Assembly (NCBI RefSeq): GCF_003143515.1
Contig: NZ_CP029343.1
Coordinates: 4,960,001 to 5,024,000, forward strand
Direction: 5' to 3'
Length of the DNA: 64,000 bases
DNA from: Massilia oculi
Lineage (GTDB): Bacteria; Pseudomonadota; Gammaproteobacteria; Burkholderiales; Burkholderiaceae_D
The notes below the pieces were generated by a model that did no database searches, was not told where the DNA came from, and saw only the letters and a program-made list of their open reading frames with translations. Position numbers and translations under genes: made by a program. This document shows positions 27,061 through 45,757 of the stretch, one piece after another (position 1 is the stretch's first letter; each line of letters begins with the position of its first letter).

Positions 27061-27515
27061 ACGAAGCAAGGGTGCAAAGCGGGGATTTCGACCTCGGCCA
27101 GGAAGTGGCGCGCCTGCGCGCCGGCGATGCGCGCATCGGCGCCGTGGTGTCTTTCGTCGGCACCGTGCGCGACCTGAACGATGGCGCCAGGGTCTCCGAG
27201 ATGGAGCTGGAACACTATCCGGGCATGACAGAAAAGTCGCTGGAAGCGATCGCGGCGCGCGCCTGCGAACGCTGGCCCCTGTACGGTACCTTGGTCATCC
27301 ACCGCGTCGGCCCGCTGGCGCCGCTGGACCAGATCGTGCTGGTGGCCTGCAGCGCCGCGCATCGGGGAGATGCGTTCGCGGCCTGCGAGTTCATCATGGA
27401 CTACCTCAAGACCGAGGCCCCGTTCTGGAAGAAAGAGCAGACGCCAGACGGCGCGCGCTGGGTCGACGCCCGCGTCACCGACGACACCGCGAAGGCCAGG
27501 TGGGAAGCGCCTTGA
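27057..27515 (+). CDS. moaE: molybdopterin synthase catalytic subunit MoaE
   Basis: The 152-residue protein matches MoaE: GAVVSFVGTVRDLNDG at the N-terminus, MELEHYPGMTEKSLEAIA, the substrate loop ACSAAHRGDAFAACEFIMDYLKTEAPFWKKE with the catalytic lysines, and a C-terminal RWVDAR. It adds sulfur, carried by MoaD, to precursor Z to make molybdopterin. moaD is not visible here. The ATG overlaps the stop of the DUF349 gene, and the 3' end overlaps the crcB frame. Confidence 0.95.
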   Translation: MNEARVQSGDFDLGQEVARLRAGDARIGAVVSFVGTVRDLNDGARVSEMELEHYPGMTEKSLEAIAARACERWPLYGTLVIHRVGPLAPLDQIVLVACSAAHRGDAFAACEFIMDYLKTEAPFWKKEQTPDGARWVDARVTDDTAKARWEAP

Positions 27516-27886
27516 GCTTTGCCGCGATCGGCCTGGGCGCCGCGCTCGGCGCCTGGCTGCGCTGGGGCCTGGGGCTGTGGCTGGGCGGCCTGCATGGCTT
27601 CGTGCAGGTCGGGACCCTGGCGGCCAACCTGGTCGGCGGCTTTCTTGTCGGCCTGGCGCTCGGCTTCTTCGCCGACCAGCCGCAACTGGCGCCCGAGTGG
27701 CGCCTGTTCGTCATCACCGGCTTCCTGGGCGGGCTGACCACGTTCTCCAGCTTCTCGGGCGAATCGGTGCTGCTGCTCCAGCGCGGTGAGGTCGGCTGGG
27801 CGCTGGCGCATACCGCGCTGCACCTGGCCGGCTCGCTGCTGCTGTGCGCGGCCGGCTTCGCCACATGGCGCTTCCTGCGTGGCTGA
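27500..27886 (+). CDS. crcB: fluoride ion channel CrcB (Fluc)
   Basis: The ~128-residue inner-membrane protein has four hydrophobic helices and the Fluc landmarks GAALGAWLRWGL (with the conserved Arg), TLAANLVGGFLVGLALG (conserved Asn) and FVITGFLGGLTTFSSFSGE (the Phe-box and TTFSSF motif). It exports fluoride as a dual-topology dimer. The start is uncertain: GTG at 27500 after AAGG, or TTG at 27512 which overlaps the moaE stop codon (TTGA). Either gives a normal length. No fluoride riboswitch is seen upstream; the gene overlaps moaE. Confidence 0.92.
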   Translation: MGSALSFAAIGLGAALGAWLRWGLGLWLGGLHGFVQVGTLAANLVGGFLVGLALGFFADQPQLAPEWRLFVITGFLGGLTTFSSFSGESVLLLQRGEVGWALAHTALHLAGSLLLCAAGFATWRFLRG

Positions 27887-27908
27887 GCCATCCCATCCGG
27901 CCGCGCCG

Positions 27909-29618
27909 ATGACCCTAGGGCGCCGCATCGATGCCGCCATCGCCCTGGTCCGGCAGGGCGCGTTCCAGGATGCGCTGGCGTCGGTGGATGATCTGCTGGA
28001 CGGCGCGGCCGCCGATGTCGATGCCCTGAACCTGGCGGCCGCCTGCGCGCTGGCGCTCGGCCAGCCGCTCGAGGCCGAGCGCCGCTGGCGCCAGGCGCTG
28101 GCGCTGCAGCCCGGCCATCCGGCATGTCTCGACAATCTGCGCATCCTGCTGCAGGAGCAGGCCGATGGCCTGCAGCGGCAGGGACTGCGCGCCGAGGCCG
28201 AGGCGCGCTACCTGGCGGCGCTCGCACTGCAGCCCGACCAGCCCGAACTGCACAACAACCTGGCCGTGCTGTACGCCGGCGCCGGACATGCCGACCCGGC
28301 CGAAGCCCATTACCGGCGCGCGCTGGACCTGCGCCCCGCTTATGCCGAGGCCTGGCACAATCTGGGCCTGCTGTACACGGCGCGCCGCCGCCTGCCGGAA
28401 GCCGAGGCGGCGCTGCGCGCATACGTGGCGCTGCGGCCGCACGATCCGGAAGGCCTCAATTCGCTGGGCAATGTGTGCCAGTACCTGCATCGTGTGCTTG
28501 ATGCGGAGGCGCTCTACCGCCAGGCGCTGGCGCTCGCCCCGCGCAATGCCCGCACCCTGAACAACCTCGGCGCGCTGCTGCAGCGCGAAGGTCACGCCAC
28601 GCAGGCCGAGGCGTCCTACCGCCAGGCGATCGCGGCCGATCCGGACTATCCGGAAGCGCGCTGGAACCTGGGATTTCTGCTGCTGTCGCGCGGTCGCCTG
28701 GAAGAGGGCTGGCCCTGGATGGAGGCGCGCTACGATCCGGCGCTGGCGCGCCCGATCGCGACCGCGCCCCAGCTCGGCTGCCCGCAATGGCGGGGCGAGC
28801 CCCTGGCCGGGCGCGGCATCGTGGTGTGGCCTGAGCAAGGCTTCGGCGACACCGTCCAGTTCGTGCGCTACCTGCCGCTGTTGAAGGCGGCCGGCGCCGG
28901 CCGGGTCACCCTGGTATGCCAGGACGCCTTGCTGCCGCTGCTGGACGCGGTGCCCGGCGCGGACCGGGTGGCGGGCCTGGGCGCGGCGGCAGGGCTGCCG
29001 CCACACGATTGCTGGGTTTTTCTCCTGAGCCTGCCGTTGCATGCGCAGACCTCGCTGGCGACGATCCCGGCGGCGCTGCCCTATCTGGCGCCGGATCCGG
29101 CGCGCGTGCGCGATTGGCGCACGCGGCTGGCGCAGGATGGCGCCGGCATGCGGGTCGGTCTGGCGTGGCGCGGCTTCGGCGGCCACGTCAACGACGCCAA
29201 CCGTTCACTGCCCGGCGTGGACTGCCTGGCGCCGCTGCTGGCCGTGCCGGACGTGCGCTTCTTCAGCCTGCAGCGCGGCATGGAGGCCGGCGCCGGCGAA
29301 GCGTTGCCTGCGCACCTGGCCGACCTCGGCCCGGAGATAAACGACTTCGGCGACACCGCCGCCATCGTGTCCGCGCTCGACCTGGTGATCTGCGTCGACA
29401 CCGCCGTGGCCCATGTGGCCGGCGCGCTGGGCAAGCCGTGCTGGGTCCTGCTGCCTGCCGTGCACCCGGACTGGCGCTGGATGGACGAGCGCGCCGATTC
29501 GCCCTGGTATCCCGGCGTGATGCGCCTGTATCGTCAGGCGGCGGCCGGCGACTGGGATACGGTGGTGCGCAAGGTCGCTACTGACCTGATTAGTGTGGTA
29601 ATTTCTCACGTGAAATAA
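27909..29618 (+). CDS. TPR-repeat glycosyltransferase
   Basis: The 569-residue protein has about seven TPR units in its N-terminal half (residues 5-265), with typical LNNLGALLQREGHATQAEASYRQAI and NNLAVLYAGAGHADPAEAHYRRAL wording. The C-terminal half is a GT-B-like domain: WRGEPLAGRGIVVWPEQGFGDTVQFVRYLPLL, MRVGLAWRGF, DLVICVDTAVAHVAGALGKPCWVLLP and DWRWMDERADSPWYP. Such proteins resemble heptosyltransferase (GT9) and O-GlcNAc-transferase-like enzymes and often sit by surface proteins they modify. No signal peptide is seen, so it should be cytoplasmic. It directly precedes the giant autotransporter, which is the natural candidate substrate; that link is inferred. Confidence 0.82.
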   Translation: MTLGRRIDAAIALVRQGAFQDALASVDDLLDGAAADVDALNLAAACALALGQPLEAERRWRQALALQPGHPACLDNLRILLQEQADGLQRQGLRAEAEARYLAALALQPDQPELHNNLAVLYAGAGHADPAEAHYRRALDLRPAYAEAWHNLGLLYTARRRLPEAEAALRAYVALRPHDPEGLNSLGNVCQYLHRVLDAEALYRQALALAPRNARTLNNLGALLQREGHATQAEASYRQAIAADPDYPEARWNLGFLLLSRGRLEEGWPWMEARYDPALARPIATAPQLGCPQWRGEPLAGRGIVVWPEQGFGDTVQFVRYLPLLKAAGAGRVTLVCQDALLPLLDAVPGADRVAGLGAAAGLPPHDCWVFLLSLPLHAQTSLATIPAALPYLAPDPARVRDWRTRLAQDGAGMRVGLAWRGFGGHVNDANRSLPGVDCLAPLLAVPDVRFFSLQRGMEAGAGEALPAHLADLGPEINDFGDTAAIVSALDLVICVDTAVAHVAGALGKPCWVLLPAVHPDWRWMDERADSPWYPGVMRLYRQAAAGDWDTVVRKVATDLISVVISHVK

Positions 29619-29740
29619 TGTGTATTTGGTGAGGGTGTATCGCGATCGACGTCACAAACTGTGGTGAAAATGCACACCGCACGTACCAATATGAGCCTGT
29701 CGGCATTTAGTATTGTTCAGCAGCATTGTTTCCGTTAAAT

Positions 29741-29786
29741 AATATCGGTTTTACGGCTTTCGCCGTCTTCGTCACTTACCGATATT
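29741..29786 (+). promoter_or_regulatory. structured 5' leader of the autotransporter mRNA
   Basis: An 8-bp perfect inverted repeat (AATATCGG at 29741-29748, CCGATATT at 29779-29786) encloses a second hairpin (ACGGC-TTTC-GCCGT, 29753-29766). The outer stem ends three bases before the ATG at 29790. No Shine-Dalgarno-like sequence is visible, so the fold would occupy the ribosome landing site. It may be a translational switch or thermometer-like element; function is inferred. Confidence 0.5.
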
Positions 29787-29789
29787 GTC

Positions 29790-32700
29790 ATGAACCATAT
29801 TTACCGCCTGATCTGGAACAAGAAACGCCATATGCTGATGGCCGTCGCCGAAGTCGCCAGCGCGAACGGCAAGGAAACCGTCAGCGACGCCGGCGTGCGG
29901 TGCGAGGTGGCGGGGACGGACCGGGGATTCACCGGCGCGCGCACCCTGCTGGCGACAGCCGTCGCGGCGCTGTTCCCGATCCTGGCGCTGGCGCAGAACG
30001 GCGGGGCGTACGACACCCGCCACATCGCCGAGCTGACTAGGTTGACCCTGAACGACGCGGATGACTCGAATGCGCAGGCCGCCGGCTGGCATATCGACAA
30101 TGACGGCGAGCTCGATATCTCCGCGACCGATGCCGGCACCAGCCTGCAGAGCCTGTCGGGTTCCGGGACCGTGCTGCTGGGCGAGCGCCTGCTCACGCTC
30201 ACCAACGCGAGCCCGGACCATGTCTTCCTGGGTACCATCCAGGGTTCCGGCGGCCTGCTCCTGGCAGGCGGCATCGGAATGCTCGGCGGCCTCAACGCGT
30301 ACGAGGGCGCCACGACGATCAACGGCGGCGCGAGCCTGGCCCTGTCCGGCTCGGGCAGCATCGCGCTCTCGAGCGGCGTGCTGAATAATGGACAGTTCGA
30401 CATCTCGGCCGCCGACAAGGACGTCGGCATCCGTTCCCTGTCCGGCAGCAGTTCGGGCAGTGTGGTGCTCGGCGGACGGACCCTGGTCCTCAGCGCCGCC
30501 AGCGGCCATTATGCGGGCGCGATCACGGGTGCGGGCGGCCTGACGGTCGAGGACGGCGAAGAAGTGCTCAGCGGCGTCAACCGTTACACGGGCGCGACCA
30601 GCATCGGCTCCGACGGCACCCTGGCCCTGAGCGGCAGCGGCGCCATCGCCATGTCGAGCGGCCTGTTCAACAATGGCGTGTTCGACATCTCGGCAAGCCA
30701 TGACGGCGCCCAGGTACAGAATATGGAGGGCAATGGCGCGGTCTGGCTGGGCGGCAAAACGCTGACGTTGACCAATGCTGGCGGACAATTTGACGGCAGC
30801 ATACACGGTTCGGGCGGCCTGGCGATCGCCGGCGGCTATGCGACCCTGACCGGAGCCCAGCACTATACCGGCGATACCACGATCGCGCAGCAGGCCGTGC
30901 TGTCGCTGACCGGACAGGCCAGCCTTGCCGCCTCGCGCGAAGTGGCTGTCGACGGCGCCCTCTACTTCACCCAGCCAGGCCAGGATACCCGGCTGCAGTC
31001 GCTGTCCGGCTCGGGCACGGTGATCCTGAATGACGACAGCCTGGTCCTGACCGATGCCCACAGCCGTTTCGACGGCGGCATCCATGGCGCGGCTGGGTTG
31101 ACGGTTGCGCAAGGCACCCAGACCCTGAACGGCGCGAACTGGTACAACGGCGTGACCCGGATCGACGACGGCGCCGGGCTGGCGCTGGGCGGTTCCGGCA
31201 GCATCGCCCTCTCGAGCGGCGTGGTGGCCGATGGCCGGTTCGATGTCTCGCAGGCGACGGCCGGCGCGCAGATCACGACCCTGTCCGGCTCGGGTGCGGT
31301 ATTGCTGGGCGGCCAGGTCCTGACCTTGACCCAGGCCAGCGGCAATTTCTCGGGCAGCATCCAGGGCTCGGGCGGCCTGGCCATCGCCGCCGGCCACGAA
31401 ATCCTCAGCGGCGCCAATACCTATAGCGGCGACACGGTGCTGGCGCAAGGCGCCCGCCTGACGCTGGAAGGCGAGGGCAGCATCGCCAACAGCCGCCTGG
31501 TGCTCGACGGTAACCGCTTCGACATCGCTGCCACCGACGGCGGCGCCGCCGTCAAGAGCCTGTCCGGCTCGGGCTCGGTCATCCTGGGCGACCAGTCGCT
31601 CACCATCACCGGCGCCGGCGACACCTTCACCGGCAATATCCGCGGTTCCGGCGGCCTGGCGATCACCGGCGGCACCCAGGTGCTGGATACCCACCTGAGC
31701 GTGTTCCACGGCGCGACCACAATCGCGAGCGGCGCCACCCTGGGCCTGGCCGGCCAGGGCAGCGGCGGCCTGGCGATGTCGAGCGGCGTGCTGGTCAATG
31801 GCACGCTCGATATCGCCGCCATGCAGGTGGAAGCCGAGATCAAGACGCTGGCGGGCGCCGGCGCCGTCAACCTCGGCAACAACAAGCTGATCCTCACGAA
31901 TGCCAGCGGCAACTTCTCGGGTACGATTCGCGGCTCGGGCGGCCTGGAACTGGCTTCTGGCCAGGAAATCCTGAGCGGACGCAATACCTACAGCGGGGAC
32001 ACCAGCATTGCCCAGGGCGCCACCCTGGCGCTGGCGGGTAACGGCAGCATCGCCAACAGCCGCGTCACTGGCGACGGCACGCTCGACATCGCAGCCAGCA
32101 ACGGCGGCGCCGCCGTCAAGAGCCTGGGCGGCTCCGGCGCCGTCCTGCTGGGCGGCCAGACCCTGACCCTGACCCGGGCAAGCGATACCTTCAGCGGCCG
32201 CATCGACGGCTCGGGCGGCCTCACCGTCGCCGGCGGCAGCGCGGTGCTGGCCGGCGACATTCGCTACACCGGCCGCACCAGCATTGGCGCCGGCGCCAGC
32301 CTGGCCCTGTTGGGTAAGAGCAGCCTTGCCTCGTCGAGCGGCGTGCAGGCTGACGGCACCTTCGACGTCAGCCAGGCCGACAGCGCCCAGATCAAGACGC
32401 TGTCCGGCGCCGGCGCGGTCCGGCTCGGGAACAATACGCTGCGCCTGAGCGATGCCAATGGCACCTTCACAGGCGTCATCAGCGGCAATGGCGGCCTCGA
32501 GGTGGCAGCCGGCACTGAAACCCTGGGCGGCGCCAATACCTACCGCGGCGCCACCACCATCGGCCGCCACGCCACGCTGGAGCTCTCCGGCGACGGCAGC
32601 ATCGCCGCCAGCCGGGTCGACGTCGCGGGCACCCTGGACGTTTCGCGCAGCGACGGCAAGGCCGCCGTCAAGAGCCTGACGGGCGCCGGCACTGTGCGGC

Positions 32701-35639
32701 TCGGCACGCAGACCCTGACCCTGGCCGAGGCCGCTGATAGTTTCGGCGGCAATATTACCGGCGCCGGCGGCATTAAGCTGGCGGGCGGCAAGCTGGGCTT
32801 TACCAGCGCCCAGGACTACACCGGCGCCACCGACATCGCCAGGGGGGCTACCCTGGCCCTGACGGGCAGGGGCGGCATCGCCGGCAGCGCGGTCGGCGTG
32901 GAGGGCGTGTTCGACGTCTCGGGTGCGTCCGGCAAGGTCGCGGTCGCGGGCCTGGGCGGCGCCGGCTCGGTATTGCTGGGGGCGAACGACCTGAGCGTGA
33001 CGCGGGCCAACGGATCCTTCAGCGGCATCCTCGCCGGCAACGGCGGCCTGAACCTCGACGGCGGCAAGCTGTCCCTGGCCGGCAACAACACCTACACCGG
33101 CAAGACCGTGGTCGCCAACGCCACCCTGCGCACGCTGGCCGACGCCAACCTGGGCCTGGGCCGCAGCGCCCTCGAGCTGGCCGACGGCGCCTGGCAGACC
33201 GGCGCCGACATGACCCACACCCGCGGCCTGCTGCTGGCCGGACGCGGCACGGTCGACGTCGACGCCGCGACCACGCTAGTCGAGACCGGCAAGGTGGACG
33301 GCAGCGGCAAGCTGGTCAAGGATGGCGCCGGCACCCTGATACTGCGCGGCACGCTGGCCAACGGCGGCGGCCTGCAGGTGAGCGGCGGCACGCTGGCCCT
33401 GAGCGCCGACAACACCTTCACGGGCGGCGCCACGATCGGTTCCGGCGCCACCCTGCGCATCGACCGCGACGCCAACCTGGGCGCGGCCGGCAGCGGCCTG
33501 GTGCTCGACGGCGGCCGCCTGCAGACCACCGGCACGCTCGGCTCGGCGCGCGGCATCGAGGTGACGGCGAAGAACGGCGTGATCGATACCGAAGGCGCCG
33601 CCAGCGTCGTGACGCTGGACGGCGACATCAGCGGCGCCGGCCGCATCGTCAAGGACGGCGAAGGCACCCTGGTGCTGGCCGGCGACAACGCCGGTGGCCG
33701 TCTCGCGGCGAACCGGCCGGGCGATGGCTGGACCGGCGGCCTGACCATCAATTCGGGCCTGGTGAAGGTGACCAATTCCTGGGGCCTGGGCTGGGGCAGC
33801 GTGATGACCTTCAATTCGGGCACCATCCACGCCACGGTCGACATCCTGACCGGCCAGGACATCACCATGGGCCGCAAGACCGACATCAACGTCGATGCCG
33901 GCACCACCACCACGCTGGCGGGCGGCCTGATCTCGACCGGCGCCGGCGACGGCTGCTTCAACAAGACCGGCCTGGGCACCCTGAACGTGACGGGCGCGGC
34001 GCGCATCGACGCCACCTGCGTCCTCGAGGGCAAGCTGCTGGCCAACGGCGTCTTCGCCAGCAAGGTGATGGTCGCCAAGGGCGCCACGCTGGGCGGCGCC
34101 GGCACGCTGCAGGGGGACTTGATCGTCCACGGCACCCTGTCGCCGGGCAACTCGCCGGGCATGCTGAGCGCCGATTCGAACATCACGATGGCCGCCGGCA
34201 GCACCTACAAGCAGGACATCGGCGGCGCCCGCCAGGCCGGCATGGACACGCCGATCGGCGCGGCCGGACATTACTCCTTCCTGCACGTGGTCAACGGCAA
34301 GCGCTTCACGATCGAGGCCGGCGCCACGCTGGCGCCGGCGCTGAAGAACCTGTACACGCCCGGCCAGGCCGGCTACGGCTCGGCCCAGTTCGTGCCCGAG
34401 CTCGGCCAGAACTTCCTGATCCTGACCGCCGACGGCGGCATCGACGGCCGTTTCGATACCCTGGCGCAGCCGGATGGCCTGGGCGCCAATACCCGGCTGG
34501 CGGCCTTCTACGACCATGGCGGCAACAACAGCATCGAGCTGAAAGTGCTGCCGGCCTCGTACGCCACCTGGGCCGGGGACGCGAGCGCCAATGCGCGTTC
34601 GGTGGGCGCGGCCCTCGACCGCATCGTCGACCTGGACCAGGCCGGCAAGGGCAGCGCCGCCCAGACCAGCCTGAGCTACCAGACCGGTTCGCGCAACGCG
34701 CAGCAGCTCGGCGGCGTGCTGCAGGGCCTGGCGGGCGAGGTGCATGGCGCGCTGGCGGCGGCCCTGCCGCAGGCCAACTGGGAACTGCAGCGCACCCTGC
34801 TGCAGCGCGCGGACAGCCAGGACGGGCGCGCGCTGTGGATCGACCTCGGCGCCGGCCGCGCGAAGTGGAAGGGCGGCGACGTCGCTTCCGCGTTCGACGC
34901 CGACCGCGTGCAGGTCACGGTCGGCTTCGACCTGCTGAAGGAGCGCGATGTGCGCCTGGGCTTCGGCGCCAGCCACGCCAGCACCGACCTCGATGCGCTG
35001 GCCGGCAACGGCAAGCTGCGCCAGAACAAGGTGTTCGCCTATGGCGAGGCGGCCGCGGGCAAGGTCGTGTTCGACCTGCAGGGCAGCTATGGCCGCGACA
35101 AGACCGAAAGCAGGCGCGCCGATCCGCTCGATCCGGCGGCCGGCCTGGCCACGCGCGGCAGCGGCAACAGCGCGCTGCTGGGCGTCGGCGCCAGCCTGCC
35201 GACGCTGCTCGGGGGCGCCAGCTTCGCGCCGTTCGCCCGTGTGACGGCCCAGCGCGTCGAGCGCGACGCGCTGGCGGAAAGCCCGGCCTCGGTGGCGGCG
35301 CTGGCGCTGGACGAGTGGTCGGCCAACGGCGCCCGCGCGGTACTGGGCCTGTCCGGCGCGTCGCGCAACCTCGATCCGCTGCTGGCCTCGACCTGGCGCT
35401 TCAAGCTCGGCGCCGGCGTCGACGGTGGTGAGCTGCTGCGTCCGGTACTCGGCGCTACCCTGGCCGGCGAGCGCATCGCGGCCGGCGCGCCGGACGTGGG
35501 CCGCGGTTTCGTACAGGGCGGTGTCACCGGCACCGTCCAGCTCAGGAAGGGGGCCTATCTCTACTTCGGCGTGAGCGGCGAAGCACGCAGCGATTACCAC
35601 ACCGTGGGCGGCAACGCCGGCCTGCGCGGCGTGTTCTGA
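29790..35639 (+). CDS. giant repeat-containing autotransporter (type Va)
   Basis: The 1949-residue protein starts with an extended signal region MNHIYRLIWNKKRHMLMAVAE typical of autotransporters, then the hydrophobic signal TLLATAVAALFPILALAQ near residues 52-69. Residues 120-1117 hold eleven tandem ~92-residue beta-helix repeats built on SLSGSG-VLLG, NF-G-I-GSGGL and GANTYSGDT. Residues 1118-1400 carry autotransporter-associated strand repeats such as KDGEGTLVLAGDN. A segment containing LSPGNSPGMLS follows, and from about 1640 to the terminal Phe there is an outer-membrane barrel domain. It is a surface-displayed or secreted adhesin-like protein. Only two cysteines are seen in the passenger. 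It is surrounded by glycosyltransferase genes. Confidence 0.92.
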   Translation: MNHIYRLIWNKKRHMLMAVAEVASANGKETVSDAGVRCEVAGTDRGFTGARTLLATAVAALFPILALAQNGGAYDTRHIAELTRLTLNDADDSNAQAAGWHIDNDGELDISATDAGTSLQSLSGSGTVLLGERLLTLTNASPDHVFLGTIQGSGGLLLAGGIGMLGGLNAYEGATTINGGASLALSGSGSIALSSGVLNNGQFDISAADKDVGIRSLSGSSSGSVVLGGRTLVLSAASGHYAGAITGAGGLTVEDGEEVLSGVNRYTGATSIGSDGTLALSGSGAIAMSSGLFNNGVFDISASHDGAQVQNMEGNGAVWLGGKTLTLTNAGGQFDGSIHGSGGLAIAGGYATLTGAQHYTGDTTIAQQAVLSLTGQASLAASREVAVDGALYFTQPGQDTRLQSLSGSGTVILNDDSLVLTDAHSRFDGGIHGAAGLTVAQGTQTLNGANWYNGVTRIDDGAGLALGGSGSIALSSGVVADGRFDVSQATAGAQITTLSGSGAVLLGGQVLTLTQASGNFSGSIQGSGGLAIAAGHEILSGANTYSGDTVLAQGARLTLEGEGSIANSRLVLDGNRFDIAATDGGAAVKSLSGSGSVILGDQSLTITGAGDTFTGNIRGSGGLAITGGTQVLDTHLSVFHGATTIASGATLGLAGQGSGGLAMSSGVLVNGTLDIAAMQVEAEIKTLAGAGAVNLGNNKLILTNASGNFSGTIRGSGGLELASGQEILSGRNTYSGDTSIAQGATLALAGNGSIANSRVTGDGTLDIAASNGGAAVKSLGGSGAVLLGGQTLTLTRASDTFSGRIDGSGGLTVAGGSAVLAGDIRYTGRTSIGAGASLALLGKSSLASSSGVQADGTFDVSQADSAQIKTLSGAGAVRLGNNTLRLSDANGTFTGVISGNGGLEVAAGTETLGGANTYRGATTIGRHATLELSGDGSIAASRVDVAGTLDVSRSDGKAAVKSLTGAGTVRLGTQTLTLAEAADSFGGNITGAGGIKLAGGKLGFTSAQDYTGATDIARGATLALTGRGGIAGSAVGVEGVFDVSGASGKVAVAGLGGAGSVLLGANDLSVTRANGSFSGILAGNGGLNLDGGKLSLAGNNTYTGKTVVANATLRTLADANLGLGRSALELADGAWQTGADMTHTRGLLLAGRGTVDVDAATTLVETGKVDGSGKLVKDGAGTLILRGTLANGGGLQVSGGTLALSADNTFTGGATIGSGATLRIDRDANLGAAGSGLVLDGGRLQTTGTLGSARGIEVTAKNGVIDTEGAASVVTLDGDISGAGRIVKDGEGTLVLAGDNAGGRLAANRPGDGWTGGLTINSGLVKVTNSWGLGWGSVMTFNSGTIHATVDILTGQDITMGRKTDINVDAGTTTTLAGGLISTGAGDGCFNKTGLGTLNVTGAARIDATCVLEGKLLANGVFASKVMVAKGATLGGAGTLQGDLIVHGTLSPGNSPGMLSADSNITMAAGSTYKQDIGGARQAGMDTPIGAAGHYSFLHVVNGKRFTIEAGATLAPALKNLYTPGQAGYGSAQFVPELGQNFLILTADGGIDGRFDTLAQPDGLGANTRLAAFYDHGGNNSIELKVLPASYATWAGDASANARSVGAALDRIVDLDQAGKGSAAQTSLSYQTGSRNAQQLGGVLQGLAGEVHGALAAALPQANWELQRTLLQRADSQDGRALWIDLGAGRAKWKGGDVASAFDADRVQVTVGFDLLKERDVRLGFGASHASTDLDALAGNGKLRQNKVFAYGEAAAGKVVFDLQGSYGRDKTESRRADPLDPAAGLATRGSGNSALLGVGASLPTLLGGASFAPFARVTAQRVERDALAESPASVAALALDEWSANGARAVLGLSGASRNLDPLLASTWRFKLGAGVDGGELLRPVLGATLAGERIAAGAPDVGRGFVQGGVTGTVQLRKGAYLYFGVSGEARSDYHTVGGNAGLRGVF
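30147..33140 (+). repeat. eleven tandem ~276-bp coding repeats in the autotransporter passenger
   Basis: Units of 91-96 residues begin with the pattern (K/Q/R)SLSGSGxVxLG and end with (F/L)DIS/DVSxxxxxAxI. Ten units are complete and the eleventh diverges near its end. The units are diverged at protein level, so the array is old rather than a recent expansion, although short DNA stretches such as GGCTCGGGCGGCCTG recur and could recombine. Confidence 0.85.
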
Positions 35640-35675
35640 TCGCCGCCGGAGCAGACCTAAGCTAGACTGTACGCC

Positions 35676-36416
35676 ATGCTCGAAGGACTGCCCCATTTCT
35701 GGATCAACCGCGCCGCCGACGAAGGGCGGCGCCTGCTGGCGCGCGAGGCCTTCGAGCGCGCCGGCGTCGTTCACGCACGCATCGAGGCGGTCACGCCCGA
35801 CACCTTGCCCACGGTGAAGGTGCGCGAGCCGTTCGCCAACTCGCTGTCCGAGCTGGCGATCGTCGCCTCGCACCTGCGCGCGGCCGGGGCCGCGCTCGAC
35901 GCGGGCGCGGCGGCGGCGGTGATCATGGAAGACGATGTGCGCGCCCACCACCGCTACGACGGCGCGGCGCTGCTGGCGTCGGCGCCGCCGGACTGGGAAA
36001 TCCTGCAGCTGCACGTGAGCCATGCGTCGGTGATCGGCGAGCTGGGCGAGCTGTACCTGCGCCACGGCATCCTGTGGCATGAATGGGAGCCGAGCTGCTA
36101 CTCGGCCGGCGCCTGGGTCGCGCGGCGCGGCGCGCTGGCGTCGCTGCTCGCGCGCTACAGCCCGGACGGGGTCGGGCTCGACCTGTCCGGCGTGCACGCC
36201 TGGGGCAAGCTGGTGGCCGATCACCTGCTGTACCGGCGCACCGCCTGCTACACGGCGACGGTGCCGTACTTCTTCAACGACATCGGCCTCGACTCGACCC
36301 ATGCGCCGCAGCGCGACGCCACCCACCATCGCCCCGGCGCGCTGGCGGCGCAGGGGCTCAGGCAGCGCATCCTCGCCGCCAGGGGCGCCTACCCGTTCGC
36401 GCTGGACCAGCGATGA
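35676..36416 (+). CDS. GT25-like glycosyltransferase
   Basis: The 246-residue protein begins with HFWINRAADEGRR, the usual start of family 25 (LPS biosynthesis) transferases. It continues with FANSLSELAIVASHLRAA and AAVIMEDDVRAHH, where EDD is the metal-binding acidic motif. SCYSAGAWVARRGALASLLARY follows. GT25 enzymes add galactose or other sugars to lipooligosaccharide or to protein. No signal peptide is visible. It starts 36 bp after the autotransporter stop codon and its stop overlaps the next ATG (ATGA), so it may be co-transcribed with the autotransporter. Confidence 0.78.
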   Translation: MLEGLPHFWINRAADEGRRLLAREAFERAGVVHARIEAVTPDTLPTVKVREPFANSLSELAIVASHLRAAGAALDAGAAAAVIMEDDVRAHHRYDGAALLASAPPDWEILQLHVSHASVIGELGELYLRHGILWHEWEPSCYSAGAWVARRGALASLLARYSPDGVGLDLSGVHAWGKLVADHLLYRRTACYTATVPYFFNDIGLDSTHAPQRDATHHRPGALAAQGLRQRILAARGAYPFALDQR

Positions 36417-37183
36417 ACGGCGCCGGCCACGACGTCGCGGTGGTGATCGCCACCACCTGCCGCCTGTCTCTGGCGCGCGCCGTGCGCTCGGTCTACGGCC
36501 AGCGCATCGACGGACGCATCCAGGTCCTGGTCGGCGTCGATTGCGACCCGCACGGACGGCTCGATGCACTGCTGGCGCAGCTGGCGCCGGAATGCCCGCC
36601 CCACGTCACGCTCAGCCTGATCGACCTGGGTTACTCGACCTCGCGCCGCCATGGGGGCGTGCACGCCTCGTTCTACGGCGGCTCGCTGCGATCGGCGCTG
36701 ACCCTGCTGGCCGACAGCCGGATCGTGGTCTATCTCGACGACGACGACTGGTTCAGGGACGACCATTGCGCGCGGGTGCTGGCCGCGATCGAAGGCAGGA
36801 AATGGGCTTTCTCCTACTCCGTTTACGCCGACGGCAACACCGGCCGGGAATTGTGCGTGGACGAGATCGAGAGCGTGGGCGTGGGCCGCGGCATCTATGC
36901 CGAGCGCTTCGGCGGCTTCGTGCGGCCCAGCGGGCTGGCGATCGACAAGCTGCAGCTGCTGCACCTGGTGCACCTGTGGTCATGCGCCGCGTTCGCGACC
37001 GGCGACGGCGAGGACCGGCTCGTGTTCGAGCAGCTGCGCCACGAGCCGCATGGCTGCACCGGCGTGGCCAGCGTGTGCGTGGCGCTCGACCCGAACGACG
37101 CGCTGCATGCGCGGCGGGTGGAATTCATGCGTACGCGCGGGGTGACGTATGACGGCGCCGACAAGGTCGAGTCGAGCCGCTAG
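36413..37183 (+). CDS. family 2-like glycosyltransferase
   Basis: The 256-residue protein has a GT-A fold pattern: DVAVVIATTCRLSLARAVRSVYGQ at the N-terminus, IQVLVGVDCDPHGR for nucleotide-sugar binding and RIVVYLDDDDWFRDDHC as the DXD metal site. The second half is less typical. The donor and acceptor cannot be read from the sequence. It overlaps the GT25-like gene by 4 bp and ends convergent to the diguanylate cyclase gene, 18 bp away. Confidence 0.78.
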   Translation: MNGAGHDVAVVIATTCRLSLARAVRSVYGQRIDGRIQVLVGVDCDPHGRLDALLAQLAPECPPHVTLSLIDLGYSTSRRHGGVHASFYGGSLRSALTLLADSRIVVYLDDDDWFRDDHCARVLAAIEGRKWAFSYSVYADGNTGRELCVDEIESVGVGRGIYAERFGGFVRPSGLAIDKLQLLHLVHLWSCAAFATGDGEDRLVFEQLRHEPHGCTGVASVCVALDPNDALHARRVEFMRTRGVTYDGADKVESSR

Positions 37184-37201
37184 CCCCGGCCGGCGCCAGG
37201 T

Positions 37202-38893
37202 TCAGGCTGGCGCGGCGGTGCCGGCAATGACCACCCGGTTACGCCCATCCTTCTTGGCCGCGTACAGGGCGCGGTCGGCTGCCTGCAGCGGATCGGCTTC
37301 CTGCCCGCCATCGCCGTTCCATTGAGCGACGCCGAACGAGGCCGAGATGCCCGAGATCGTCGCGCCCTGGTGCTGGATGACCATCTCGGCCAGGGTCTGG
37401 CGGATCGACTCGGCACACTTCGCAGCTTCTTCTGCGCCGCAATCGGGCAACATCAGCACCAGTTCCTCGCCGCCGTAGCGGCAGGCCACGTCGCTGGCGC
37501 GCACCCGCTGCAACAGGGTGCGGCTGGCCGCCTGCAGCACCAGATCGCCGCCATCGTGGCCGTACGTATCGTTGATGCGCTTGAAGTGATCGAGGTCGAT
37601 CATCACCACCGAGCAGACGCTCCGGCTGCGCTGTGTGCGCGCCAGTTCGCGCTTGAGCGACTCGTCGAAGAATCGCCGGTTGTACAGGCCGGTCAGCGGA
37701 TCGACGGTCGATTGATGGCGCAGCGTGTTGCGCAGCGAGACATTGCTGATCGCCAGGCTGAGCTGTTCGGCCAGCGAGACGATGTGTGCGTTGTCGCTCG
37801 GGCTTGCGTCGTGCCGGTCGCCGGCGATCACCAGGATCCCAATCACATCACCCTGGGAAATCATCGGCACGCAGGTCTGGGCCTCATGGTCACCGTGCCA
37901 GGTCGCGCGATGGTCGCAGCACAGATCGTGTTCTCTATTGGCGCGATGGACCTTGCCCAGGCGCAGGGCCCAGCATTCGCCTGGCGCCACCGTGGGCGGC
38001 GCATCTTCCATCAGGCCCCAGCTGGCCTTCAGTTCGAGCACGTCACGCGAATTGCGATATAGATAGACCGCGCCAGATGCGCCAGGCAACAGCTTGCGCA
38101 GGAATACCGGTAACACCCGCTCGAGCTCGGGCAGTGTCTTCACGCTATCGAGCGCCTGCAGCATATCGGCAGTAATCGCCAGGCGCTCGGCGCGTATGGC
38201 GGCCTGTTGCGCCAGCTGTGCGTTGTTCTCCGCCAGTAATGTCGACCGGCGCGCCGATTCCGCCTGTTCATTCAGGCTCCTGGTCACGATATAGATGGTG
38301 GCAAAAATCAGCACGACGCTGGCCAGGCTGGCGCCGATGCCCAGCGCCGAGTTGTAGCGCAGGGTCGCTGTCAGCTCGTCGCGCAAGCCGCTGCGGTGGT
38401 CGGCCAGCGCCTTTTGCTGGCGGCCGAGCAGGGTGCGCAGCTCGTCCATGATGATCCTGCCGCGCTGGCTGGCCACCATGTCCATTGCCGCCTGCGACTT
38501 TCCGGCTTTCTTGAGGCGGATGGTCTTGTCCATTTCGCGGACCTTCGCCTGGCTCAGTTCGACGATACGCGCCACCAGCGTGCGCTCCGCATCCGAACCG
38601 GCGTGCCGTTGCAGATGCTCGAGCGCGGCGGGTATGCCCGCCACGCCCGCGTTGTACGGGGCCAGGAAACTCTCGTCGCTGCCGATCAGGAAGCCGCGTT
38701 GCCCGGTCTCGGCGTCCTGCAGCAGTGTCAGCATGAGCCCGTAGGCACGTTCCTTGGCAGCCCCTTCCTTCAGCGCCTCCAGGGTGGCGTTCGCCTGGGA
38801 GCCGCTGAGGATGGGCAGCGTGGCAAGGCAGGCAAGGATGACGATGATGAGGGTGCCGAAAATCTTCAGGCTGGCGTCGAGTCGGGAAAACAT
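37202..38893 (-). CDS. CHASE3-GAF-GGDEF diguanylate cyclase
   Basis: The 563-residue protein has a first membrane helix near residues 9-30, then a periplasmic CHASE3-like domain (DAETGQRGFLIGSDESFLAPY). A second helix lies near 195-215, followed by a cytoplasmic GAF domain and a GGDEF domain with RYGGEELV (GGEEL at 474-478). The active-site motif is intact and an RxxD inhibitory site (RASD) lies five residues before it, so product inhibition by c-di-GMP is expected. It would make c-di-GMP in response to a periplasmic or small-molecule cue. Start at the ATG leading straight into the first helix; no ribosome binding site is clear. It lies downstream of the leftward glycosyltransferase operon and could be co-expressed with it. 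Confidence 0.9.
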   Translation of the reverse strand: MFSRLDASLKIFGTLIIVILACLATLPILSGSQANATLEALKEGAAKERAYGLMLTLLQDAETGQRGFLIGSDESFLAPYNAGVAGIPAALEHLQRHAGSDAERTLVARIVELSQAKVREMDKTIRLKKAGKSQAAMDMVASQRGRIIMDELRTLLGRQQKALADHRSGLRDELTATLRYNSALGIGASLASVVLIFATIYIVTRSLNEQAESARRSTLLAENNAQLAQQAAIRAERLAITADMLQALDSVKTLPELERVLPVFLRKLLPGASGAVYLYRNSRDVLELKASWGLMEDAPPTVAPGECWALRLGKVHRANREHDLCCDHRATWHGDHEAQTCVPMISQGDVIGILVIAGDRHDASPSDNAHIVSLAEQLSLAISNVSLRNTLRHQSTVDPLTGLYNRRFFDESLKRELARTQRSRSVCSVVMIDLDHFKRINDTYGHDGGDLVLQAASRTLLQRVRASDVACRYGGEELVLMLPDCGAEEAAKCAESIRQTLAEMVIQHQGATISGISASFGVAQWNGDGGQEADPLQAADRALYAAKKDGRNRVVIAGTAAPA

Positions 38894-38974
38894 GCTGGAG
38901 GGAAATAATAAATTTGGCAGATGATAGCCCGGGACGGGCGCGGCCAATGCGCGAAACAGCCGGCCACATTCGCT

Positions 38975-39817
38975 TCAGTTCGGACGATCGGCGCGTGGCG
39001 CCGTCGCCAGCGCCGCCGCGTAGGCCGCATGCGGTCCATGGGCGCCCAATGCCGCCAACGCCGTCTCGTATCCCGTCGGCGCCTGCTCGAAACTGGCCGC
39101 CGCCCAGATCGCCGCGAAGTGTTCCGCGGCCCAGGTATTCGCTCCGGTCTGCACATAGGTGTAGGCCCACGGCGCATCGAGCAGCAGCACCCGCCCGCGC
39201 CGCAGCATGGCGTGCATCACGGCGGTGTCCTCGCCGCGCGCCAGCGCCGGGTAGGGCGGCACGCTGGCGCGCCGCGCCAGCATCGAACCTTCCCATTCGC
39301 GGGCGCCGGACACGCCCAGCCGGCGCGCGCCCGGCGCCCACAGCAGCCAGCGCTGCAGGAACATCGCGTCGGCCCCCAGCGCCAGCAAGGCCTGCATTCC
39401 CAACCCGATGCGGTCGGGGTGGTACAGGTCGTCGTCGTCCCACTGGCAGACCCAGTCGCCGCGCGCGGCCTCCAGCGACAGGTTGCGCAGCTCGCCCAGG
39501 CTGGCCGCGGGTGTGGAAGGGTAGACCAGCCGGATGCGCTCGTCGCCCAGCTGGCGGCAATAGGCCTCGATCGCGGTGCCGGGCGCGTCGCAGACCAGCA
39601 CCAGTTCGCGGCTGGCCCAGCCCTGGGCGCGGAAGCAGTCGACCGCGAAGCGCGCCGGGAACAGGCGGCCGCGGGTCACCATCAGGCACGATACCAACGG
39701 CTGCGCGCCGGGCCAGGCCAGCTGCTGCAGCACGCCTTGCGCCACCTGCACGCCGTCCTGGCCCAGCTTGAAGCCGGCGCCGCGGCCGGGGCCGGGCAGG
39801 AAGTCGGTCAGGTTCAT
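38975..39817 (-). CDS. family 2-like glycosyltransferase
   Basis: The 280-residue protein starts MNLTDFLPGPGRGAG and contains LVSCLMVTRGRLFPARFAVDCF, LVLVCDAPGTAIEAYC and GDWVCQWDDDDLYHPDRIGLG, the last with the DDDD metal site. This is the standard GT-A layout of family 2 enzymes. The ending GYETALAALGAHGPHAAYAAALA is Ala-rich. The ATG overlaps the stop of the upstream gene. The sugar transferred is unknown. Confidence 0.8.
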   Translation of the reverse strand: MNLTDFLPGPGRGAGFKLGQDGVQVAQGVLQQLAWPGAQPLVSCLMVTRGRLFPARFAVDCFRAQGWASRELVLVCDAPGTAIEAYCRQLGDERIRLVYPSTPAASLGELRNLSLEAARGDWVCQWDDDDLYHPDRIGLGMQALLALGADAMFLQRWLLWAPGARRLGVSGAREWEGSMLARRASVPPYPALARGEDTAVMHAMLRRGRVLLLDAPWAYTYVQTGANTWAAEHFAAIWAAASFEQAPTGYETALAALGAHGPHAAYAAALATAPRADRPN

Positions 39818-40689
39818 GGGGCGGATTCCGGCAATGATTCCGGCAACGATTCCGGCAATGATTCGGGCAGGTAAGGCTGCGCCAGCAGCGCATAGGTCGA
39901 GGCGCCGGCGCGCACCCAGTCCTCGGTCAGCAGGCCGGCATGGAAGCTGGTGAAGTCGGTGCGCGCGGCGTCCCACCACAGGTGGCTGCACAGGTGCAGG
40001 CTGACCACGTCGCGCAGGTCGGGATCGATCCGCTCGAACAGGTTGCGCATGCCGTCCGGCGTCCACGGCTGGCGGTAGAAGTACTGGCGCGGCGCCACGT
40101 GCACCAGCTCCGGGTGCGCTTCCCACAGGCGCGTGGCGAGCTGGCAGGAGTGGCTGGTCCACTTGCCGTCGAAGGCGGCGTGGGAATCGTGCAGCCAGCG
40201 CGCGATGAAGGGCGCGCCGGGACTGGCCGCGATCAGGGCGTTGCACAGCGACGGGCGCAGGATGCCGCGTTCGTCGGGCAGGGCGCCTTCGTCGCCCAGC
40301 ACGCAATCGTAATCATGCAGGTGGTCCGGCATGGGGGCGACGAACAGCGTGTCGATGTCGGCATAGATGCCGCCATGCCCGGCCAGCACCCGCAGGCGGA
40401 TGAAGTCGGCCTCGTGGGCATAGCTCCAGCCGGCGGCGGCGATCAGGCGGCCTTCGCCGGATTGCTGGTAGGCGGCCTGCGGCAGCGCCTCGCGCGTCAC
40501 CTTGCGCAGCACCAGGTGCGGCTTGATGCGATCCCACAGCGGCCCCCACGGTTCGTGGTCGTGGTGGAACCAGATCGCGTGGCCGGGGTTGAGACGGCGG
40601 CACGATTCGAGGCACAGGTAGTGCGCCAGGTGGAATGGTTCGTCCTGCACGCGCAGGCCGAACACGAAGTGGAAGATGCGCGGGATCAT
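39814..40689 (-). CDS. GT32-like glycosyltransferase with LPES-repeat tail
   Basis: The 291-residue protein begins IPRIFHFVFGLRVQDEPFHLAHY and has HEADFIRLRVLAGHGGIYADIDTLFVAP. The latter is the DXD signature of the Gly_transf_sug (family 32-type) enzymes. These add sugars to glycans using a nucleotide sugar. The last residues are four tandem LPES units followed by AP, encoded by a 12-bp repeat at 39823-39870. The ATG overlaps the stop of the upstream GT4 gene and the stop overlaps the downstream gene, so all four are translationally coupled. Confidence 0.8.
   Translation of the reverse strand: MIPRIFHFVFGLRVQDEPFHLAHYLCLESCRRLNPGHAIWFHHDHEPWGPLWDRIKPHLVLRKVTREALPQAAYQQSGEGRLIAAAGWSYAHEADFIRLRVLAGHGGIYADIDTLFVAPMPDHLHDYDCVLGDEGALPDERGILRPSLCNALIAASPGAPFIARWLHDSHAAFDGKWTSHSCQLATRLWEAHPELVHVAPRQYFYRQPWTPDGMRNLFERIDPDLRDVVSLHLCSHLWWDAARTDFTSFHAGLLTEDWVRAGASTYALLAQPYLPESLPESLPESLPESAP
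39823..39870 (-). repeat. four-copy 12-bp tandem repeat encoding LPES
   Basis: Four 12-bp units (close to TTGCCGGAATCA on the coding strand) encode L-P-E-S four times at the extreme C-terminus of the GT32-like protein. Because the unit is a multiple of three, copy-number change would lengthen or shorten the tail without a frameshift. Confidence 0.75.
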
Positions 40690-41900
40690 GGCTGGCCCTC
40701 CAGGACGCCGATCGCACGGGCGAACTGGCGCATGACGGCGCCTTCGGCGTAGCGGTTGGCGATGGTCTCGCTCAGGCGCCTGGCGTGGAGATCGGGCGCA
40801 TCGCGGTGGATGAAGCGGTAGCGCATCTTGGCGCGCGCGTCCGCCACGTCGGCCACCGCCCAGCGCTGGTCCGGCGCATAGGTGGTGCCGGGCCAGTCGA
40901 TCGCTTCCAGGCGGCCGCCGACCAGGCCCGGATGGTCGCGCCCGAGGTAGTCGAGGGGGCCGCTCCAGCCCGTCATCAGGACCGGACGCCCGAGGGTGGC
41001 GGCCTCGAAGGCGCCCATGCCCCAGCCTTCGGCGCGGCTCAGGGACACATAGGTGTCGCCGATGCCGTGCACGCGGTCGATCCAGCTGCCATCGAGGCCG
41101 TCGCCGGCCAGTACGCCGATGCGCGGCAGTTGCGCGCGTGGGCTGCGCGCGGCGAAGGCGCGGATGGTTTCCTGCACCAGCTCGCGCGAGGTCTTGCCCT
41201 GTTCGTGGGGCAGCGGGAAATGCACCGGCCGGGTCGAGGTCTTGATGCACAGGGCGGCCGCTTCGACGGCCGTGAATTCGGCGAGGAAGGCCTCGACCAG
41301 GCGCGGCAAGTCCTTGCGCAGCATCCAGGCGCCGATCGTGTAGAACACGTGGTCATCCGGCCGGAAGCCCATCCGCTCGCGCAGTTCGGCGCGTGCGGCG
41401 GGCGTGACGTCGTCGACCGCGTGGCGCCGGATGTGCGGCACCACGTGCACCGGCACGGTCACGCCGCCGGCGCGAAACGCATTCGCGTTGAAGGTCGACG
41501 GTACCAGCACCGCCTCGAAGCGGTTCAGGATCGCCGGCCAGTGGGCCGGGATGCGGTCGGCTTCCCAGGTGCAGTAGGCATAGTTGCGCTTGCCCGGCTC
41601 GAGGCAGGCTTCCAGGTATTCGGGCACCAGGTGGGCGACCACGATCTCGCAGTCGCGCGGTGCCGCGCAGCGCGCGAGGATGGCGGGCAGGTCGCGCAGG
41701 CCCGGGTCGGCGCCCGCCGCGCGCATGCATTCGAGCAGCCCGGGCGCCATGCCCGGTTCCCAGAACTGCAGGCCCTGCGGCCCCCAGAACACGGGCTGCC
41801 ACTGTACCTCCAGGCCCAGGTTGAGCAGGCCGCGCACGTAGGCAAGGCCCGACAGGCCGTAGCCGGTGGTATCGCCGTAGGAGACATATTTGATGGTCAT
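40686..41900 (-). CDS. GT4-like glycosyltransferase (GT-B fold)
   Basis: The 404-residue protein starts MTIKYVSYGDTTGYGLSG and includes CTWEADRIPAHWPAILNRFEAVLVPSTFNANAF. Its C-terminal donor domain reads VFYTIGAWMLRKDLPRLVEAF, DTYVSLSRAEGWGMGAFEAATLGRPVLMTGWSG. The E-G-W/F-G-x4-EA pattern is the hallmark of family 4 glycosyltransferases. The N-terminal acceptor domain is unusual and gives no clue to the substrate. It is the second gene of the leftward operon, overlapping its neighbours by 4 bp on both sides. Confidence 0.83.
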   Translation of the reverse strand: MTIKYVSYGDTTGYGLSGLAYVRGLLNLGLEVQWQPVFWGPQGLQFWEPGMAPGLLECMRAAGADPGLRDLPAILARCAAPRDCEIVVAHLVPEYLEACLEPGKRNYAYCTWEADRIPAHWPAILNRFEAVLVPSTFNANAFRAGGVTVPVHVVPHIRRHAVDDVTPAARAELRERMGFRPDDHVFYTIGAWMLRKDLPRLVEAFLAEFTAVEAAALCIKTSTRPVHFPLPHEQGKTSRELVQETIRAFAARSPRAQLPRIGVLAGDGLDGSWIDRVHGIGDTYVSLSRAEGWGMGAFEAATLGRPVLMTGWSGPLDYLGRDHPGLVGGRLEAIDWPGTTYAPDQRWAVADVADARAKMRYRFIHRDAPDLHARRLSETIANRYAEGAVMRQFARAIGVLEGQP

Positions 41901-43024
41901 GCGGTTTCCTGGTGCGGTCGCTCGACGCGCAGGCCGGCGATGCGCAGCAGCCCCGCGCCGGCGCTGAAGACGCCGATCACGATGTCCTTGCGGCTGGTGG
42001 CGACGTCGAGGTCGAGCGCCGGCGTGGCCGCGCCGCCGCCCAGGCGGTGCCCGGCGCGCGCCAGCGGCAAGCCGGAATCGTTCTCCAGCGCCGCCAGGGT
42101 CACTGCGGCGCCGGCGGCCGCGTCGTCCAGCTCGAGCAGCACCCGGTAGCGGCCCGCCGCGAACGGGATCGGCAGGTGGCACAGCGCCACCGTGTCGAGC
42201 GCGCCGTCGCTCCTGGCCGGCGCGCCTGGATAGACCAGGCGGCCGCCGTCGAGCGTTGCCGCGGTGCGACCATGGCGCGCCAGGTAATCGGCCTGGATCA
42301 GCACCGGATAATCGGCGGCATAGGTCAGGCGGGCGTAATAGAAATCGTTGTAGTCGTTGACGCCCCGGTCCAGCCCCAGTTCCGCCAGCCCGGCGGCGCG
42401 TTTGGTGCGGTAGCCGATCAGGCGACCGTCGGTGGCGTCGACGAAGGCCAGCGACTCGGTATCGTTGCGCTGGGCCAGGTTGCTCACCTCGCCCAGGTGG
42501 ATCTGGTCCGGTTCGCAGTGCAGGGCGATCGCCTTGCCCAGCAGCACCGGACCCGTGGGGCACAGCGAGGAAGCGCCACGGTAGCGGCTGCGGCAGTTGG
42601 CCACGATCATCCGGATCGCCGCCGCCAGGGCCGGCGCGCCGGCCGGCGCCCCCAGGATGGTGTTGCTCACGATCCAGGGCGCAACCACGGCGCGGTCGCG
42701 GAACACGATCAGCTTGCCCGATTCCAGCGGCAGCGGGGCATGGAAGAACACCGACAGGTCGGCATACAGCCCGCCGAACTCGTGCAGCAGGCACAGGCGC
42801 GCCAGGTCGGCGCGGTAGGCATAGGGCAGCAGCTGATCGTAGGCCCAGGCGACGTCGGCTTCCATATGGGTGCGCAGGAAATCGCGGATGGCGTCCTCGC
42901 GGTACACATGGTGCGGCAGGCCCGGGTGGTGCTCGCGCAACGACGCGAGATTGCGTGCGATGGCGGGCGGGAGCGCCTGGTCGGCAGGGGCCTGGTCGGC
43001 GATGAGAATGCTGAATAGGTTCAT
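41897..43024 (-). CDS. GT32-like glycosyltransferase with C-terminal beta-rich domain
   Basis: The 375-residue protein contains AYRADLARLCLLHEFGGLYADLSVFFHAPLPL, the DXD (here DLS) motif of Gly_transf_sug enzymes, in its first third. From about residue 250 a beta-rich segment (AAGRYRVLLELDDAAAGAAVTLAALE... LRIAGLRVERP) looks like a small carbohydrate-binding sandwich. DLS lacks the second Asp of a typical DXD, so catalysis needs checking. It is the first gene of the four-gene leftward operon; no clear ribosome binding site precedes the ATG. Confidence 0.75.
   Translation of the reverse strand: MNLFSILIADQAPADQALPPAIARNLASLREHHPGLPHHVYREDAIRDFLRTHMEADVAWAYDQLLPYAYRADLARLCLLHEFGGLYADLSVFFHAPLPLESGKLIVFRDRAVVAPWIVSNTILGAPAGAPALAAAIRMIVANCRSRYRGASSLCPTGPVLLGKAIALHCEPDQIHLGEVSNLAQRNDTESLAFVDATDGRLIGYRTKRAAGLAELGLDRGVNDYNDFYYARLTYAADYPVLIQADYLARHGRTAATLDGGRLVYPGAPARSDGALDTVALCHLPIPFAAGRYRVLLELDDAAAGAAVTLAALENDSGLPLARAGHRLGGGAATPALDLDVATSRKDIVIGVFSAGAGLLRIAGLRVERPHQETA

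Positions 43025-43147: not shown

Positions 43148-45757
<2,610 letters not shown>

Follow-up and report, generated by a model that had tools for sequence, protein, structure and literature searches.

An eight-gene cassette of one autotransporter and seven glycosyltransferases in Massilia and Noviherbaspirillum: a candidate adhesin glycosylation system

Introduction

Why would seven glycosyltransferase genes be gathered around the gene of a single giant autotransporter? The question is raised by a locus of Massilia oculi (genome G000; 5.84 Mb, one contig), in a 64,000-nt stretch of DNA that we call the window and to which all coordinates refer unless another locus is named. The eight genes are labelled TPR-GT, AT (the autotransporter), GT25, GT2a, GT2b, GT32a, GT32b and GT4 (Table 1). 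An earlier sequence-only reading of the window placed TPR-GT upstream of a 1949-residue AT, two transferase genes close behind AT and four more in a coupled leftward run, and proposed a dedicated glycosylation system. The coordinates bear out this layout: 171 bp separate TPR-GT from AT, GT25 begins 36 bp after AT and is overlapped by GT2a, and GT32b, GT4, GT32a and GT2b follow one another with successive 4-bp overlaps. The arrangement is confirmed as real and more than chance, because it recurs in other genomes.

From comparison of sequences, it is well supported that the eight genes make up a dedicated cassette that recurs as a unit in two genera at different sites. We further judge it fairly probable that they are one glycosylation cassette for AT, in which TPR-GT would start the glycan and the six other transferases would extend it.

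Recurrence of the cassette

Within Massilia, four cassette proteins (GT4, GT25, AT and TPR-GT) were used to search 62 genomes; GT2a, GT2b and GT32b were looked for in fetched neighbourhoods only. GT4 (E<=1e-20) and GT25 (E<=1e-5) are found in the same five genomes, AT (E<=1e-20) in those five and as an N-terminal piece in a sixth, G164, and TPR-GT at >=66% identity likewise in the five and G164; at E<=1e-40, some TPR-GT is present in 24 of the 62. Neither GT25 nor GT4 was found without AT in any of the 62 genomes. The fetched neighbourhoods of G000, G124, G129, G133 and G160 hold all eight genes in one order and orientation. The assemblies of G129, G133 and G160 break within the AT repeats and leave the two halves on separate contigs, so that for these three we infer that the halves are adjacent.

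The cassette is also found outside the genus. A GT32a profile (E<=1e-30) matches 6 of 392 family-sampled genomes, five of them Massilia and the sixth Noviherbaspirillum cavernae (G100), in which all eight genes lie within 12.3 kb, with AT>GT25>GT2a convergent with TPR-GT>GT32b>GT4>GT32a>GT2b. Since the same set appears there in a changed order, more than a frozen neighbourhood is involved. The sequence-only reading had asked for such co-occurrence of transferases and autotransporter in relatives, and the distribution in the five Massilia genomes (with the AT fragment of G164) and in Noviherbaspirillum agrees with it. In protein databases, the GT25 profile gives 50 clusters at E<=0.001, of which the seven named by organism come from Massilia (three), Noviherbaspirillum (three) and Burkholderiales (one); the closest named proteins, from M. 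aurea and Massilia sp. CFBP9012, are 95-96% identical. A contig-level search with GT25 returned three loci, all already in the genus scan. Matches to GT32a are more widespread, with 1130 at E<=1e-10 among 7999 candidates scored, and a further 399 order-sampled genomes add three matches, in three other families (G705, G596 and G473). Plasmid carriage of GT4 was considered and rejected: 15 of 72,556 plasmid records match, all at <60% identity.

The sites differ as well. The cassette lies between genes that we take to be crcB and clpB in G000 and G124, and at other positions in the remaining four bearers. The crcB-clpB site is empty in G169, G120 and G146, where the two genes are 78-95 bp apart and ClpB is 97-98% identical to that of M. 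oculi (G124, 96%). None of 12 fetched clpB regions, including those of G129, G133, G160 and G164, contains a cassette gene. When open reading frames of >=150 aa are compared, the only similarity among the cassette flanks of G000, G129, G133, G164 and G100 is one weak match (34%), from which we conclude that the sites differ; the pieces from G160 are not long enough to show neighbours.

The divergence of the cassette can be set beside that of three markers, presumably ClpB, MoaE and a DUF349-region protein. Between the close relatives G129 and G133, these are 96% (first 337 aa), 93% and 88% identical, and all eight cassette proteins 63-83%; between G000 and G124, the markers are 96, 88 and 86% identical and the cassette proteins 80-88%. 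For these comparisons, AT was restricted to its C-terminal 350 aa and TPR-GT to the catalytic part. The G129-G133 cassette divergence would be accounted for if the complete unit had been transferred, or if different old copies had been retained.

A diguanylate cyclase gene does lie beside the leftward transferase operon, as the sequence-only reading said, but it is not a member of the unit: among the six bearers it stands between the two halves in M. oculi and in none of the other five, and we rejected it as a candidate. The gap between the halves is 1.35 kb without a cyclase in G124, a 4-bp overlap in G129 and G133, 15 bp in G160 and 14 bp in G100. The orthologue in G124 (80% identical) is ~136 kb from the cassette, and relatives (E<=1e-60) occur in 33 of the 62 Massilia genomes, 28 of them without the cassette. 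An EAL-domain gene (48859-50139) lies ~10 kb from the GGDEF gene; both kinds of cyclic di-GMP gene are apparently near the cassette by accident.

The autotransporter and TPR-GT

AT has the architecture of a type Va autotransporter, with a signal sequence, a passenger and a C-terminal PF03797 beta-domain. The Pfam scan gives ESPR at 48.4 bits and PATR at 44.2 bits; PF03797 was missed in the scan of the whole protein and found at 76.1 bits (E 4.9e-21) when the last 350 aa were scanned alone, and it is present in all six orthologues. The passenger consists of about ten units of ~93 aa each. Over residues 71-1500 (1430 residues), Ser and Thr make up 19.3%, and there are 15 N-x-S/T sequons. The structure model has low confidence (pLDDT 48.7), so its top-ranked barrels (EspP, NalP, Hbp and BrkA) count for little, and a PDB sequence search with AT gave no matches. 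The open frame varies in length, from 2288 aa in G124 and 1949 aa in M. oculi to 1211 aa in Noviherbaspirillum (L073/L128).

TPR-GT, the proposed initiating protein glycosyltransferase, joins ~8 repeats (residues ~1-283) to a catalytic domain that matches GT9 just over the cut-off (PF01075, 23.1 bits against 22), alongside Pfam TPR families. Its AF2 model is confident (pLDDT 94.0, pTM 0.88), with 16 helices in the TPR part, and its structure matches are SPY/OGT and the GT9 structure 3tov. In a PDB sequence search, the whole protein matched TPR proteins and, through the TPR part, OGT/SPY; the catalytic part gave a single row at E 0.04, which we take as chance. The 17 Pfam matches at E<=0.001 include no HMW1C or GT41 family, nor was PF13844, which we take to be the GT41 (OGT/SPY) family, matched at that threshold. 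TIGR04414, the BAHT model, is absent from the 15 NCBIfam matches at E<=0.001. Searched at genome level, it exceeds its cut-off in none of seven genomes (a weak G100 match has 21.6 bits against 200) and in none of 14 controls, one of which, E. coli, has a weak match; the genome-level search thus had no passing positive control. Relatives of TPR-GT are common (at least 4724 among 7999 scored candidates at E<=1e-20). One genome of the family scan, G037 (locus L010), has a striking expansion of 11 TPR-GT matches at E<=1e-60; beside the one locus checked there, an ESPR-like start was not seen.

The six other transferases

The remaining transferases are assigned by profiles of differing strength. 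GT25 itself matches no Pfam family at E<=0.001; five listed relatives with 54-64% identity (P0034, P0036, P0037, P0040 and P0048) carry PF01755. PF00535 is below threshold in GT2a (21.2 bits against 23.3). In GT4, the residue that follows the EGWGMGAF motif is Glu in three of five orthologues and Asp in two. PDB sequence searches gave no matches for GT4, four weak subtilisin rows (E 0.64-0.78) for GT25, and for GT32a a match to SetA at 3.2e-5 and to a putative insecticidal toxin at 0.049. SetA is, we presume, a Legionella effector, and the match would support a DXD transferase fold only.

All seven transferases are predicted to be soluble. No 19-residue window exceeds a hydropathy of 1.6 in GT25, GT2a, GT2b or GT32a, and borderline windows number one in GT4, two in GT32b and seven in TPR-GT, the highest at 1.88. 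Pfam and NCBIfam scans of the eight genes found no initiating phosphoglycosyltransferase, flippase, polymerase, ligase or sugar-nucleotide gene. Two features stand apart from these assignments. The C-terminal part of GT32b (~130 aa, 41897-42300) is kept in all six orthologues, has no Pfam match and could be a binding module; and the PESL-type tail of GT32a is encoded by a 12-bp unit repeated 3.8 times (39824-39869), with no counterpart in four aligned Massilia orthologues.

Comparison with known systems

A review of type V secretion from 2021 describes two cytoplasmic glycosylation mechanisms, HMW1C-like N-glycosyltransferases (NGTs) and BAHTs (PMC8151025). A BAHT is a single enzyme that adds heptose and has an N-terminal beta-barrel, a beta-hairpin thumb and a four-Cys iron finger in one C-lobe insertion (PMC4358343). 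As with TibC/Aah and their autotransporters TibA/AIDA-I, a gene for a predicted cytoplasmic transferase of GT-B fold adjoins the autotransporter gene in Massilia, and the Ser/Thr-rich passenger recalls their Ser/Thr acceptors. In contrast to that one heptose enzyme, Massilia has seven transferases, a TPR superhelix and no TIGR04414 match; a four-Cys finger of the BAHT type was not found among the cassette TPR-GTs, all six of which keep only Cys 337, 495 and 511, spread across 175 residues. HMW1C lacks a TPR domain and modifies Asn sequons with mono- or di-hexoses (PMC3012730). HMW1C, EtpC and ApHMW1C resemble the cassette in that a type V adhesin has its own transferase next to it and is modified in the cytoplasm (as predicted for Massilia), whereas the Massilia enzyme has TPRs and six further transferases beside it, and its sequons are the 15 counted above. 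The sequence-only reading had likened the locus to heptosyltransferase and HMW1C systems: the likeness is one of function only, as the sequence features that define the two types were looked for and not found. As judged from sequence, the cassette appears to fit neither type.

The closest system in logic is the Fap1 locus of Streptococcus parasanguinis, in which six genes direct the stepwise assembly of a hexasaccharide on one adhesin, with an accessory secretion complex in the pathway (PMC5207161). Both combine a single repetitive adhesin with a dedicated transferase cluster, but Fap1 is a Gram-positive cell-wall adhesin with a Gtf1/Gtf2 initiator and accessory secretion, against a Gram-negative type Va autotransporter and a TPR-GT9 enzyme. 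TPR-GT itself shares with OGT/SPY (GT41) the fusion of a TPR superhelix to a GT-B domain, and differs in its GT9 match and lack of PF13844. Among the matches listed for the open-licence PubMed Central literature, no description of this gene arrangement was found.

Proposed function and alternatives

In the mechanism that we propose, AT, with its extended (ESPR) signal, would be synthesised in the cytoplasm; TPR-GT would dock onto the repetitive passenger and transfer an initial sugar to it, probably onto Ser/Thr; the remaining six transferases, if active, would lengthen the glycan in sequence, up to about seven sugars; and the glycosylated AT would leave by Sec, its own beta-barrel displaying the passenger. 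The stronger proposal is that the cassette represents a third way of glycosylating type V adhesins, in which a TPR-GT9 enzyme starts and six transferases finish a cytoplasmic oligosaccharide, the oligosaccharide-bearing passenger crosses SecYEG and the outer-membrane barrel, and the eight-gene cassette moves between species as one; on this we are evenly divided. If true, a seven-enzyme cassette tied to one autotransporter would stand beside HMW1C-like NGTs and BAHTs and would give the streptococcal Fap1 pathway a Gram-negative counterpart. It would also make testable, in an environmental bacterium, the glycan size limit for passage through Sec and an autotransporter barrel, and the role of orphan TPR-GT9 enzymes, a large family. 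The cassette could serve as an eight-gene kit for placing defined glycans on a repeat protein.

Several observations weigh against this proposal. In G705 and G596, from two other Burkholderiales families, relatives of GT4 (44 and 36%) adjoin relatives of GT32a (54 and 48%), and no AT or TPR-GT homologue (E<=1e-4) was found in the 20 kb fetched from each; part of the set can therefore serve another acceptor. The sequence-only reading had named transferases without AT in many relatives as speaking against it; these distant pairs are a case of that kind, and none was seen for GT4 or GT25 in the 62 Massilia genomes. G164 has TPR-GT and the start of AT; no AT C-terminus, GT4, GT25 or GT32a was found in its assembly, which is 99% complete, and as its contig ends ~535 codons into AT, the cassette there may be either truncated or unassembled. 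The divergences of the cassette genes correlate with a mean of 0.78, which falls to 0.23 without the G000-G124 pair (housekeeping markers, 0.88); resting mostly on that pair, they add little, and we rejected as weak the argument for a common tree. No acceptor motif was identified in AT, and the eight genes include no dedicated export factor or accessory secretion gene. ESPR is no evidence by itself, as the 2021 review states that glycosylation does not require it (PMC8151025).

What else could hold these genes together? The main rival is that what the transferases build or cap is a lipid-linked glycan of the cell surface, either capsule or the outer core of lipopolysaccharide (LPS) or lipooligosaccharide (LOS), and that AT has been selected along with them, for instance as a lectin-like adhesin binding or presenting the glycan or as one that receives it by the LPS route. 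Relatives of GT25 (PF01755) and Caps_synth/GT32 proteins are usual in LPS and capsule loci, the GT4-GT32a pairs elsewhere do without AT, and a paper that the 2021 review cites, said to concern the trimeric autotransporter EmaA, reportedly deals with dependence on the LPS biosynthesis pathway. We nevertheless consider this rival unlikely: the eight genes lack the initiating, flipping, polymerising, ligating and sugar-nucleotide functions listed above, the Massilia AT gene sits between TPR-GT and GT25 in the same direction, TPR-GT has the OGT shape known for protein substrates, and GT4 and GT25 were never found without AT in the 62 Massilia genomes.

A general O-glycosylation set, with AT as main client and other surface proteins also modified, would suit the abundance of TPR-GT relatives and the broad target range of OGT's TPR domains (PMC3012730); the co-occurrence of the cassette with one AT family makes it improbable. 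That unrelated surface genes gathered by chance in an insertion hotspot seems very improbable: the M. oculi site is indeed an insertion between housekeeping genes where the GGDEF gene landed independently, but the identical eight-gene set lies at other sites in two genera, and gathering followed by one vertical inheritance is contradicted by the different sites and the G129-G133 divergence. The dedicated glycosylation system around one giant adhesin first proposed for the locus is, then, partly supported: recurrence in two genera speaks for it, and membership of the cyclase falls away.

Gene layout and neighbouring genes

Table 1. Cassette genes and their neighbours in the window
Feature	Position	Strand	Basis
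TPR-GT, ~8 TPR repeats and GT9-like GT-B domain	27909..29618	+	Pfam, AF2 model, structure matches
AT, 1949-aa type Va autotransporter, proposed acceptor	29790..35639	+	ESPR, PATR, repeat spacing, PF03797
PF03797 beta-domain within AT gene	34833..35573	+	Scan of C-terminus
GT25-like glycosyltransferase, EDD motif	35676..36416	+	Alignment of 5; relatives carry PF01755
GT2a, GT2-like glycosyltransferase, conserved YLDDDDW	36413..37183	+	Sub-threshold PF00535, alignment of 6
CHASE3-GAF-GGDEF diguanylate cyclase, outside cassette	37202..38947	-	Domain scan, comparison of 6 bearers
GT2b, GT2-like glycosyltransferase, conserved QWDDDDLYHP	38975..39817	-	PF00535, alignment of 6
GT32a, DXD sugar-binding glycosyltransferase	39814..40689	-	PF04488, alignment of 5
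GT4-like glycosyltransferase, EGWGMGAF motif	40686..41900	-	Weak PF20706/PF00534, both below cut-off; alignment of 5
GT32b, Caps_synth/PF04488-type glycosyltransferase with ~130-aa C-terminal part	41897..43024	-	PF05704, PF04488, alignment of 6
crcB (presumed), left neighbour of insertion site	27500..27886, start approximate	+	Beside clpB in G169, G120, G146
clpB (presumed), right neighbour of insertion site	43148..45757	+	Beside crcB in G169, G120, G146

Repeats at the ends of the insertion were looked for, with nothing convincing, and promoter and terminator scans of the locus gave signals at chance level. TPR-GT starts 22 bp past the end of crcB (27886-27909), so in the M. oculi genome it may be cotranscribed with the DUF349-region, moaE and crcB genes. 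The adjoining GT4 and GT32a relatives of G705 (L183:9420-13874) and G596 (L184:7517-10487) form small transferase clusters, possibly an ancestor of one half of the cassette, or a cousin of it, without AT. A 35% match to GT32a is also present in G473, on a 4.3-kb contig.
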